This document shows, in pieces, positions 5,747 through 47,194 of a stretch of DNA of 47,407 nt (position 1 is its first letter; each line of letters starts with the position of its first letter). Location of the stretch: the NCBI GenBank assembly GCA_007693745.1, contig REDA01000047.1, positions 1-47,407 on the forward strand, written 5' to 3'. Position numbers and translations under genes: made by a program. The notes beneath the pieces were generated by a model. That model was not told where the DNA came from, did no database searches, and was given only the letters and a program-made list of their open reading frames with translations. This DNA is from Balneolaceae bacterium. GTDB lineage: Bacteria; Bacteroidota; Rhodothermia; Balneolales; Balneolaceae.

Positions 5747-5995
5747 ATGGAAAAAACGTACGATATATTTGGAATGCACTGCGCCGGGTGTGTGAACAGC
5801 GTAGAAAGATTGCTCACTTCGGTTGAAGGGGTGTCTAAAGCTTCGGTGCACCTTACAACCGAAAAAGCGGTGGTTGAATTTGAATCTGAGGAGAGTCCGG
5901 TGGATGATAACGTGCTGATAGAGGCCGTTTCCAAAGCAGGCTTTGAACTGGTTCCTGCGCCAAAAAAAAAAGGACAGGAGAAGCTGAACGGCTAA
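5747..5995 (+). CDS. copZ: Heavy-metal-associated (HMA) copper chaperone-like domain; N-terminal frame of CopA
   Basis: An 82-residue HMA domain with GMHCAGC (Cys12, Cys15), the CxxC Cu(I)-binding motif. On its own it would be a CopZ-size cytosolic copper chaperone. However, the stop at 5993 lies in the middle of what would be the linker to the ATPase. In the -1 frame, from the A run at 5962-5971, the reading continues without interruption through a charged, Arg/Lys/Glu-rich linker into the P-type ATPase. The frame change would yield a 758-residue protein, the normal size for a CopA with one HMA domain. I therefore read this as the first part of a copA gene that can also terminate early. An indel in the genome or a base-calling error in the A run is the alternative. 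Confidence 0.85.
   Translation: MEKTYDIFGMHCAGCVNSVERLLTSVEGVSKASVHLTTEKAVVEFESEESPVDDNVLIEAVSKAGFELVPAPKKKGQEKLNG
5962..5971 (+). promoter_or_regulatory. A10 run: candidate -1 frameshift or transcriptional slippage site
   Basis: Ten consecutive A residues follow CC and precede GG. In the HMA frame they read (cc)A AAA AAA AAA, so a heptamer of the A_AAA_AAA type is available for tandem tRNA-Lys slippage by -1. The ATPase frame is open from 5947 and the HMA frame ends at 5995, so the switch must occur within 5947-5995, and the A run is the obvious place. I do not see a strong downstream stem-loop. A GGACAGGAG purine tract follows the run. Confidence 0.5.
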
Positions 5996-6045
5996 AGGAG
6001 AAGAGAGAGCGGGAGGAGAAAAAACTCGCGGATGCAAGAGGTAAA

Positions 6046-8022
6046 ATGATTCTCAGCTGGGCGGTTACATTGCCCCTGATGATCTGGATGTTCCTGGAGA
6101 TGGTGCTGGGGCTGCACATGATGTCACACCTCGTTATGGAACTGGCTATGGTAGCGGGCGCTTCCTATGTGATTTTCCGGCCGGGGCGTGAAACACTTCT
6201 TAGTGCCGCACGGTCGGCCCGTGTCTGGATACCTAACATGGATGTACTGATCGCACTTGGTACGCTCGCTTCACTTCTCACCGGACTGGCAGCACTCGGG
6301 TATGAATTAGGGTTACTTCAATCTCCTTTTTACAGTTTTGCCGGTATTGCAGCGATGATCATGGCGTTTCATCTCACAGGACGCTATGTGGAAACGAAGG
6401 CGCGCGGCCGCGCTTCCGAAGCGATCACACGGCTGCTGACCCTGGAAGCTGCCACGGCCACACTGATTGTAAACGGTATCGAGAAATCGGTGCCTGCAGA
6501 TGAACTGAGGAAAGGGGATGTGATGATCATCCGGACGGGAGAAACCGTGCCTGCGGATGGTGTGGTGGTGGACGGGAAAGGTTCCCTGGATGAAGCGATG
6601 ATTACCGGAGAGCCAATGCCGGTAACCCGTACAGTCGGGGATCCTGTAGTGGGTGGTACCATCAACAGAGAGGGATTTCTGAGGGTGAAGGTAACCGTAA
6701 CGGGAGAAGATACCTTCCTGAGCAGGGTTATCCGGCTGGTGGAAGAAGCTCAGGGGTCCAAAGTACCCATACAGGATGTCGCTGATAAGGTGACAGCTGT
6801 TTTTGTTCCCGTGATCTTGCTGCTTTCACTGGCTACCTTTCTTGCCTGGTTGCTCTTGCCGGCACTTCTCAATCCTCTGCTCGATTTTGCAGAGGGATTT
6901 ATTCCGTGGATCGTAACGGATCTCAATCCGGTGGGCCAGGCGTTTTTTGCAGCACTCGCCGTTCTGGTGATTGCCTGCCCCTGCGCTCTGGGACTGGCAA
7001 CCCCGACCGCCCTCATGGTCGGATCCGGACTGGGTGCGGAAAATGGAATTCTGATTCGCAGGGGAGAGGCTATTCAGCGACTGCAGGAGGCTACAGTACT
7101 TGTTTTTGATAAAACCGGAACACTGACTCAGGGTAAGCCGGAAGTTGCGGAATGGGTACAGATCGATGGGGAAGAAGCTGAAATCAAAACACTTGTGGGA
7201 TCCCTCGAAAAGCAGTCAGAACATCCGGTAAGCCTCGCCATCACCGAGTTTGTAAAGGCAGAATTGACAGAGGATGTCAGGGATTTTGAGACCTATACAG
7301 GTATGGGCGTATGCGGTATGGTTGGTGATCGCCGTATCGTGGCGGGGAACCTTGATCTGATGGATCATTTTTCCATACCCGCAGAGGGTGAAGCCGGCCG
7401 GAAAGCCGCTGAAATGCTGCAAAAGGGTTACACCACCATTTTTATCGCATCTGATGGCAGGATCTCTGCTGTTGCCGGTCTTACCGATCAGATTAAGGAT
7501 GGTACAGCGGAGATGATTCAAAGAGTGAAGATGATGGGCTACAGGACGATCATGCTCACAGGAGATCAGGAAAAGTCGGCCAGACTGATTGCGGATCAGA
7601 TCGGGATTGAGCAGGTGATTGCCGGAGTAAAACCGGACCAGAAATCGGAAGTCATTACCGGCCTGCAAAAAAGGGGAGAAGTGGTTGTGATGATAGGCGA
7701 CGGTGTGAATGACGCCCCTGCACTCTCAGCCGCAGACGTAGGGATTGCCATGGGTACCGGGACGGATATTGCGATAGAAGCCGGGAGCGTGATCCTTGTG
7801 GATGGTCATCCGAATGGTCTGGTGAGGGCGCTCAATCTGAGCCGGGAAACATTCCGGAAAATCAGACAAAACCTTTTCTGGGCTTTTTTCTACAATGTTG
7901 TGATGATTCCTGTAGCAGTGATTGGATGGATGCACCCGGTACTGGCAGAAGCTGCCATGGCCTTTAGCTCCGTTAATGTCGTGGGAAATTCACGCCGGCT
8001 GAGCCATAAAAAGCTCGATTAA
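6046..8022 (+). CDS. copA: Cu(I)-translocating P1B-type ATPase CopA (membrane and catalytic part)
   Basis: This P1B-type ATPase exports Cu(I) across the inner membrane. The listed part, 658 residues from the first ATG, starts just before the first transmembrane helix. Visible motifs are actuator TGE (187-189), CPC (311-313) in the ion-path helix, phosphorylated Asp355 in DKTGT, SEHPVS, and hinge GDGVND (551-556). YN in FFYNVVMIP and MAFSS near the C-terminus are Cu(I)-type (P1B-1) signatures. No ATG, GTG or TTG lies in this frame between 5947 and 6046, yet the frame codes for a plausible charged linker upstream, so the natural full-length product probably starts at 5747 and reaches this frame by a -1 shift. 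Separate initiation at 6046 is possible (AGAGG lies shortly before it) and would give an ATPase without a metal-binding domain. Confidence 0.93.
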   Translation: MILSWAVTLPLMIWMFLEMVLGLHMMSHLVMELAMVAGASYVIFRPGRETLLSAARSARVWIPNMDVLIALGTLASLLTGLAALGYELGLLQSPFYSFAGIAAMIMAFHLTGRYVETKARGRASEAITRLLTLEAATATLIVNGIEKSVPADELRKGDVMIIRTGETVPADGVVVDGKGSLDEAMITGEPMPVTRTVGDPVVGGTINREGFLRVKVTVTGEDTFLSRVIRLVEEAQGSKVPIQDVADKVTAVFVPVILLLSLATFLAWLLLPALLNPLLDFAEGFIPWIVTDLNPVGQAFFAALAVLVIACPCALGLATPTALMVGSGLGAENGILIRRGEAIQRLQEATVLVFDKTGTLTQGKPEVAEWVQIDGEEAEIKTLVGSLEKQSEHPVSLAITEFVKAELTEDVRDFETYTGMGVCGMVGDRRIVAGNLDLMDHFSIPAEGEAGRKAAEMLQKGYTTIFIASDGRISAVAGLTDQIKDGTAEMIQRVKMMGYRTIMLTGDQEKSARLIADQIGIEQVIAGVKPDQKSEVITGLQKRGEVVVMIGDGVNDAPALSAADVGIAMGTGTDIAIEAGSVILVDGHPNGLVRALNLSRETFRKIRQNLFWAFFYNVVMIPVAVIGWMHPVLAEAAMAFSSVNVVGNSRRLSHKKLD

Positions 8023-45220: not shown

Positions 45221-47194
45221 ATGTTTCTAAAAAATTTTCAGAATTCATTTCTCCGGGTTTTACTCATGACAGTTGCTGTTACATCCTGTCAAAAGCATCA
45301 GCTCTATGTTGATTCAGAAATCAGTGGAACGACTGAAGACGCATCCCTGATGAGAGCGATTGCAGAACGAGACAGTGCTGCGTTATTTGCTTTTACCGGT
45401 CACCCGGATCCGCATATTTCAGACCTTGCGTGGAAAGGGCTGGCGCATGCTGAACTTGATGCATCTGATGTAAGGTATCTGTTTGATAGTGCAGTTGAAG
45501 ATTCCTCAGCCAAGGCCTGGTTTGTACTGGCACATCAGGATTTGACTGATGAACCAAGCAGGGAAATTGAATCTTTGTTCCTCTCAGGTGAACTTCAGCC
45601 AGGCCCGGTATGTCACTATTTGAAACGAAAAGGCAGTGCTGAAGTGCTTGAAAAGATGGTCCGGTACCCTGAAATCTTTGCCTATCCTGAATGCTCTGCC
45701 GCAGCCGGGTTTATGATTCAACGCATCCCGCTTCAGCATCAGGAGGTCGACTCTCTGTTTTCTCTGATTAAAGGGTCAGATGATCAGGAATTGAGACTCC
45801 ATCTGCTGTACGGTTTCTGGCGAACTCCTCTGAACCGGCCCAAAACCGGCAGTGATTCACATCAGATAGTGATGGAGATGCTCTATCAACGAAGAGATAA
45901 CCAGCCGGAAACAGAGGATGAATTTCTGCTGCGAATTGCAGGAATAGAGGCCTTTGCGGATGCAGCTGAAAGAGTAAAACTGACTGATTCGGAGCGAAAC
46001 AGTCAGTTTGCAGTTACAGCGGCGGCTCTTTTATCACAAATGGCACCTGATTCGATTGATATTTCGTCAGTATTGATCTTGCTTGAACATCCCAACCCTA
46101 ATGTTGCTCTTGAGGCACTTGAAGCCCTGAAACAGGTTAAACCGCTTGACCATTCTGTTCTTGAATTGATATGGGAGACGGTACTTTTATATCATCCGTT
46201 TCCCGAAGCGGAGATAAGTCTGCTCGAACTGATGGTAGAACAGGGGCAGGAGAAGCATGGTAATCTGCCGCTGTTGCGGAATTTACAAGAGGAGCAGCCA
46301 TATCTCACCTCACGTGTACTGGATCTCATCAAACTCTGGGTGGTTGAGACAGATTATCTGACCCGCATCTCAGAGCTTCTGCCGGGTGAGGGTATTTCCT
46401 CCATGCATTCAGCGATGGCACTCTCGGATTATGTTTCCACTCACCCGGCTCCGCGCATGGTGGCATCAAAGATCAGCGAGCAGTTTCAAAATGAAGTGAA
46501 AGCGTTTAACCGCAGTCTTTTATCTGTGTCAGAGCTGCTGCTTTTCAATCCATATTTCTTTCCCGACAGTTTCTTACCTGTTCTCGAAACTCTTCTGGAA
46601 GAGGCATATCAGAAAAATGAGTATTCTCTTGCCGCTATGATTTCTTCCGTTTTAAAAGAGCGGGGTGCAGCGGGTGGAGCGGAGGATGCCGGTCCTCCCC
46701 GAAAACCCTTCCGCTATCCGGAATCAGACTGGGAAACAGACACGGATCGGCACTATGACTGGGTTCTGGAAACGTCTCAGGGTGAAATCAGAATTCGGCT
46801 GGATCCGGATTCGGCACCTTTTACGGTCTCATCTATTCTTCATCTAAGTGAAACGGGACAGTATGACGGAGTGGTTTTCCACAGAGTGGTGAGGAATTTT
46901 GTAATTCAGGGGGGGGATTTTGACCGGAGGGACGGTTTTGGAGGTCCGCCGTACAGAATTCCAACGGAACCTTCATTCAGCAGTTTTAACAGAGGCAGTG
47001 TGGGAATGGCCAGTTCCGGACAGGATACCGAGGGTAGCCAGTTTTTCATCACGCATACCCGGACTCCTCATCTCGACGGACTCTACACGCTTTTCGGGGA
47101 AGTGGTTGAGGGGATGGAGGTGGTGGATCGCATCCGGCTTGGGGATGTTGTGATCAGTGCGAGGGTGGAGGTGAGGGAAGGGAGGGGAAAGTGA
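45221..47194 (+). CDS. Lipoprotein with HEAT-like repeats and C-terminal cyclophilin-type PPIase
   Basis: 657 residues from the ATG at 45221 (MFLKNFQNSFLRVLLMTVAVTSC: a lipoprotein signal with Cys23); an ATG at 45182 would add 13 residues. Residues about 40-490 are helical with HEAT-like pairs, e.g. SVLILLEHPNPNVALEALEAL. The last about 145 residues are a cyclophilin-type peptidyl-prolyl isomerase: VLETSQGEIRIRLDPDSAPF, GVVFHRVVRNFVIQGGD, GSVGMASSGQDTEGSQFFIT and LDGLYTLFGEVVEGMEVVD. Active-site Arg and Phe in FHRV and QFF are kept. Probably an envelope-facing foldase on a scaffold. The stop is followed within 70 bp by tandem repeats. Confidence 0.88.
   Translation: MFLKNFQNSFLRVLLMTVAVTSCQKHQLYVDSEISGTTEDASLMRAIAERDSAALFAFTGHPDPHISDLAWKGLAHAELDASDVRYLFDSAVEDSSAKAWFVLAHQDLTDEPSREIESLFLSGELQPGPVCHYLKRKGSAEVLEKMVRYPEIFAYPECSAAAGFMIQRIPLQHQEVDSLFSLIKGSDDQELRLHLLYGFWRTPLNRPKTGSDSHQIVMEMLYQRRDNQPETEDEFLLRIAGIEAFADAAERVKLTDSERNSQFAVTAAALLSQMAPDSIDISSVLILLEHPNPNVALEALEALKQVKPLDHSVLELIWETVLLYHPFPEAEISLLELMVEQGQEKHGNLPLLRNLQEEQPYLTSRVLDLIKLWVVETDYLTRISELLPGEGISSMHSAMALSDYVSTHPAPRMVASKISEQFQNEVKAFNRSLLSVSELLLFNPYFFPDSFLPVLETLLEEAYQKNEYSLAAMISSVLKERGAAGGAEDAGPPRKPFRYPESDWETDTDRHYDWVLETSQGEIRIRLDPDSAPFTVSSILHLSETGQYDGVVFHRVVRNFVIQGGDFDRRDGFGGPPYRIPTEPSFSSFNRGSVGMASSGQDTEGSQFFITHTRTPHLDGLYTLFGEVVEGMEVVDRIRLGDVVISARVEVREGRGK

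Follow-up and report, generated by a model that had tools for sequence, protein, structure and literature searches.

A conserved adenine run between the HMA and ATPase frames of Balneolaceae copA: one gene that may yield a CopZ-like chaperone and CopA by slippage

Introduction

The slippery site of Escherichia coli copA is CCCAAAG, and E. coli dnaX undergoes a ribosomal −1 frameshift at A_AAA_AAG. PMC7558416 and PMC9548414 credit programmed ribosomal frameshifting in E. coli copA/CopA(Z) to Meydan 2017 and Drees 2017. The copA event works through a slippery site, a pseudoknot and the nascent chain (PMC7558416), and ribosomes that stay in the standard frame make the long protein (PMC5009743). 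Transcriptional slippage occurs at a run of nine A in Thermus thermophilus dnaX (PMC1088944, PMC5009743). In Shigella mxiE, two overlapping frames yield their longer protein only through transcriptional slippage at a homopolymer (PMC1088944).

Here, we describe a copA gene from a Balneolaceae bacterium, in which the HMA domain and the ATPase lie in different frames that overlap at a run of ten A (A10). The gene lies in a contig of 47,407 nucleotides (hereafter the window), and its genome (2.87 Mb, 100 contigs) was compared with 27 relatives of its genus, most of the compared genomes being drafts in many contigs. As in E. coli copA, a P1B-1 Cu+-ATPase and a short HMA chaperone would come from one gene, with no separate copZ, and the shift would be to −1 after the N-terminal HMA domain. 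A literature search, covering few subscription papers, returned no precedent for an A-run in copA and nothing on copA of Balneolaceae.

Results

Two overlapping frames meet at an A10 run

No other A/T run in the 47 kb window is as long as the A10 run (Table 1). The entire 2.87 Mb genome holds five A10 runs, three of them intergenic and two coding, in copA and dnaX. The HMA frame (0 frame) starts at ATG 5747 and stops at TAA 5993–5995, exactly the 22 bases 3′ of the run that were originally noted. The −1 frame likewise proved open, as noted, from 5947 into the CopA ATPase, through a linker lacking a start codon: a start-codon scan from 5947 found no ATG, GTG or TTG before ATG 6046, which lies at the first TM helix. 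In-silico translation of the window gene yields a single product of 758 aa, the length foreseen for the joined protein, from a transcript with one additional A, and a product of 79 aa from a transcript with one A fewer. Past the run, alternative-frame stops follow at 7 codons in the 0 frame and at 4 codons in the +1 frame, and at no more than 14 codons in relatives. Elsewhere in the window, a G8 tract (46909–46916) falls at codon 576 of a long open frame of 671 codons and is possibly an unstable homopolymer.

Table 1. Features of the copA gene in the window and the A-run of dnaX
Feature	Position	Strand	Basis or remark
Slippery run A10	5962..5971	+	CCA AAA AAA AAA GGA in HMA frame
0-frame ORF, 82 aa, CopZ-like, single HMA domain (GMHCAGC)	5747..5995	+	ORF reading, Pfam PF00403
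−1 open frame: linker and P1B-1 Cu+-ATPase	5947..8022	+	TIGR01511, motifs
Charged linker, −1 frame (RTGEAERLKEKREREEKKLADARGK), without start codon	5972..6045	+	pN/pS, start-codon scan
Leu codon CTA of −1 frame	5992-5994	+	With next A forms 0-frame stop TAA 5993-5995
First ATG of ATPase frame, at TM1; candidate internal start if two genes	6046..6048	+	Start-codon scan
dnaX A10 run	L156, G000:C24:73334-73343	minus	Other genus dnaX loci L159-L185

The two predicted proteins are a copper ATPase and an HMA protein

The ATPase scored 524.3 bits against TIGR01511 (copper-translocating P-type ATPase), above the curated cut-off of 397. Assignment to P1B-1 was based on CPC in TM6, YN..P and M..SS in the last TM helices, and DKTGT; all motifs were found, namely CPC, DKTGT, GDGVND, YNVVMIP (YN..P) and MAFSS (M..SS). 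The 82-aa protein matched the Pfam HMA family PF00403 with 62.6 bits over residues 4–67, with its CxxC present as GMHCAGC, and so has what we took to define CopZ: one HMA domain with CxxC in about 70 aa. The best of the curated CopZ models, NF033794, gave it 53.8 bits, below the cut-off of 95. Judged by these models, the 82-aa product is an HMA protein and no curated CopZ equivalog; we infer that it works as a Cu chaperone.

The window gene has one HMA domain where its genus relatives have two in tandem, and the short product is therefore 82 aa instead of the about 147 aa of the two-HMA relatives. The window HMA (5747–5961) is about 44–63% identical to the first HMA of the relatives and about 33–51% identical to the second; it looks as if a deletion had fused the two domains.

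The run is kept across the genus and the break recurs

Reading the HMA–ATPase junction in the relatives, an alignment that the original prediction had proposed as a check, revealed the identical −1 break at A9 or A10, at the matching place, in 12 other genomes of the genus (G019, G017, G020, G010, G014, G023, G008, G021, G001, G003, G018 and G024). In the broken genes the run is A10 (A9 in G014) and lies directly 3′ of the last HMA domain, and the 0-frame stop comes 2–7 codons past it. Nine further orthologs (G012, G007, G006, G002, G025, G013, G004, G009 and G022) keep a run of A9 or A10 in an uninterrupted frame. A9 or A10 is present in 22/22 genus orthologs and lengths of 8 or 11 never occur; the species are related, and these counts are non-independent events. 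Uninterrupted relatives with A8 or A11 had been named beforehand as evidence against the prediction. The uninterrupted relatives that exist have A9 or A10 and closed alternative frames: where the junction holds the run, stops follow after 2–4 codons in the −1 frame and after 7–8 in the +1 frame. Because these frames are closed, slippage in the in-frame relatives would give a short product. In G009 and G022 (L017, L022), an A9 run is found about 13 codons further 3′ along the linker, as though the slippage site had undergone positional turnover.

On the tree, one clade is broken in 8/8 genes (its own support is moderate, 89/88), and in the other clade the frame state is mixed by subclade, with A9 or A10 throughout. 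Since the frame state follows the tree, it is consistent with a fixed trait that switched few times, which argues against phase variation. The break at A10 is no chance event: it recurs, it is always −1, and it is always at A9 or A10.

The linker is conserved in the −1 frame and its leucine forms the stop

Over the linker from the run to TM1, in the 13 broken genes, pN/pS was 0.29 in the −1 frame (bootstrap 0.20–0.41), compared to 0.97 and 1.36 in the other two frames, which alone contain stops. These ratios indicate that the −1 frame is under purifying selection and translated right from the run. The start-codon scan found no early linker starts, and no ATG at the TM1 position in G021 and G003. 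Separate initiation of the ATPase is disfavoured by the conserved −1 linker together with these missing starts.

In 20/20 genes with a junction run, a count made non-independent by shared ancestry, the homologous linker leucine forms the off-frame stop. Its codon is TTA, CTA, or CTG followed by A, in contexts such as LEEKR, LDQKR and LKEKR. About 0.28 of the Leu codons elsewhere in these genes would be expected to form such a stop, and TTA or CTA account for only 3% of the leucines in the window. In G009 and G022 the run lies 3′ of the leucine, and CTG followed by G creates no stop; in G028, which is outside the genus and has no run, the homologous codon is CTT. Synonymous sites of the linker are near saturation (pS 0.9), and three separate spellings lead to one outcome. 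Both frame states thus appear to be arranged to yield two products.

Genomes with the run have no stand-alone CopZ

A whole-genome HMA census of the genus located the HMA domains of run-bearing genomes only in the copA gene, the exceptions being G022, with further fused HMAs and a 48-aa fragment, and G010, with two matches under the family cut-off. A stand-alone CopZ-type HMA ORF was found in 0/22 of the run-bearing genomes. G005, G011 and G015 each carry a stand-alone HMA ORF (111, 81 and 91 aa, respectively) and a different copA (about 38% identity) without a run of 9. The association (3/3 without the run versus 0/22 with it) has p = 4e-4, a naive value that ignores relatedness.

The break was found in one genus only

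Among 80 CopA loci surveyed, the nearest HMA was out of frame only in L042 and L045. L042 is the contig of G010, already in the genus count; L045 (Falkowbacteria) was rejected as an ordinary copZ and copA gene pair. Other loci flagged for a frame difference had separate upstream HMA ORFs, as judged from coordinates. A run of at least nine A was present in the CopA linker of 0/78 loci from other phyla, with A8 in one. In other Balneolaceae genera, the HMA–ATPase break was absent from the loci read, and an in-frame A9 or A10 occurs in the CopA linker of G033 (L013), G076 (L197), G097 (L191) and G098 (L186). A Lys-rich linker can bear such a run, and the break therefore carries more weight as evidence than the run on its own. 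G033 has a separate short HMA ORF despite its in-frame linker run.

dnaX, downstream structure and tRNA-Lys

The dnaX gene has an in-frame A9 or A10 at the same codon, LKK(K/N), throughout the genus (25/25 read; two more were not located). Both other frames close within 12 codons, and the run is often followed by C and not by A or G. This is the layout of transcriptional slippage in Thermus dnaX, and tau and gamma are probably produced in the genus by transcriptional slippage.

A structure scan that covered stem-loops gave no signal downstream of the copA run over 20 genes (mean z −0.2 for 50 nt and −0.55 for 90 nt). In G023 and G000 the only tRNA-Lys found was tRNA-Lys(UUU), in a search mostly of tRNAs <83 nt and on an incomplete G000; tRNA-Lys(CUU) was not found in the well-assembled relative G023. 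An argument of the dnaX type from tRNA-Lys(CUU) was dropped, since with only UUU found the mechanisms are not separated. With tRNA-Lys(UUU) present and no tRNA-Lys(CUU) found in G023, A_AAA_AAA or A_AAA_AAG could also slip on the ribosome.

Discussion

We propose that one gene probably produces both a CopZ-like chaperone and CopA by homopolymer slippage, with RNA polymerase as the slipping machine. RNA polymerase crossing A10 would slip in some fraction of passes. A faithful A10 transcript would encode the 82-aa HMA protein, the CopZ-like chaperone; a transcript with one A more (or two A fewer) would join the HMA domain and linker to the ATPase in a CopA of 758 aa; and a transcript with one A fewer would give an HMA protein of 79 aa. 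The chaperone:pump ratio would then be set by the slippage rate. In the in-frame relatives, faithful reading would give CopA, and slipped reading the short protein. Against the proposal, these relatives show that CopA can be made without slippage. The original prediction, an 82-residue CopZ and a 758-residue CopA through −1 slippage at the A-run, fits all the comparative evidence and is supported by it. We give an even chance to a wider reading, in which single-base indels have switched the default product between chaperone and pump from species to species while a transcriptional slippage site was kept lineage-wide.

That slippage occurs, and that its agent is RNA polymerase over the ribosome, we infer from the gene comparisons; we consider RNA polymerase considerably the more probable of the two machines. 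It is favoured because the runs are always at least 9 long, no conserved downstream stem-loop was found, and dnaX has the layout described above. A ribosomal slippery heptamer needs 7 A, fewer than in the runs seen. Two marks of programmed transcriptional slippage are present, namely A≥9 conserved between species and nearby stops in the frames of the short products.

The same two products would result from ribosomal −1 frameshifting on A_AAA_AAA or A_AAA_AAG, as in E. coli dnaX, which we regard as rather unlikely. A usable in-phase heptamer lies within every broken run, tRNA-Lys(UUU) is the sole tRNA-Lys found in G023 and G000, and ribosomes are described as sliding on A-runs (PMC4363877). However, a conserved stimulatory stem-loop was not found, runs are never shorter than 9 though 7 would suffice, the in-phase position and the following codon vary among the genes, and AAC is frequent at the site in the dnaX genes of the genus.

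It is less likely again that slippage merely rescues a fixed frameshift, a role put forward for some insect endosymbionts, and that the short HMA product is functionless. Slippage-prone runs can occur in genes whose frames are disrupted (PMC1088944), and in-frame relatives exist; yet these relatives retain A9 or A10 and the off-frame stops where rescue is needless, and no other CopZ is present in the run-bearing genomes.

Two separately started genes, copZ followed by an ATPase reinitiated from ATG 6046 or nearby, are very improbable. Most broken genes have an ATG at TM1, preceded in the window by GAGGT, and a true copZ/copA pair exists in L045. However, the linker 5′ of that ATG is conserved as −1 frame protein, the ATG is absent in G021 and G003, and the A-run would be left unexplained. 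Slightly less probable still is DNA-level phase variation, with the run length shifting in populations and copA turned on and off: homopolymers are prone to replication slippage and the genus shows both frame states, but the state is constant within clades (8/8 in the broken one), a single kind of correction would restore every broken gene, and lengths are 9 or 10 only. Assembly or base-calling error, the competing explanation named at the outset, has a negligible chance even though the window has no longer A/T run than A10, and for the genus it is refuted by the 12 other assemblies with the same −1 break and different flanks, the broken set including the near-complete genomes G023 (about 7 contigs) and G003 (about 20 contigs).

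If the default product has indeed switched, the chaperone:pump ratio would vary among species with no change in gene content. Natural comparisons are available within the genus, between the two frame states of one run and with species that encode CopZ separately. Automated annotation pipelines would be prone to label such genes as frameshifted pseudogenes despite the selection on them.

The run resembles the A9 of Thermus dnaX in being a sense-strand A≥9 with nearby alternative-frame stops and two product lengths; the gene is different, and in the window it is the slipped product that would be longer. As in Shigella mxiE, the longer protein would need homopolymer slippage to join two overlapping frames, although mxiE is an unrelated gene whose short product is no proposed chaperone. 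E. coli dnaX is approached by the AAA AAA AAG of several relatives and by the −1 stop within 2–4 codons in the in-frame relatives; it differs in its shorter run and in its downstream hairpin, of which no conserved counterpart was found.

The likeness to E. coli copA originally suggested holds for the two predicted products and is reversed in polarity. In 13 species the unslipped frame encodes the putative chaperone, whereas in E. coli it encodes the full pump; a full-length pump from the unslipped frame is found only in the in-frame relatives, and the window frame stops at 5993. The CCCAAAG heptamer is absent from the window site; where E. coli has this heptamer, a pseudoknot and the nascent chain, the genus has A9 or A10 with no stem-loop found. 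On these grounds of signal and polarity, we place the window gene outside the E. coli copA frameshift family, and regard it as E. coli copA-like in its proposed working. If this reading is true, the gene represents an independent route to the arrangement of E. coli copA, with another signal, the opposite default product and another machine too, probably RNA polymerase, which suggests that a chaperone and pump pair is worth producing from one gene in unrelated bacteria.
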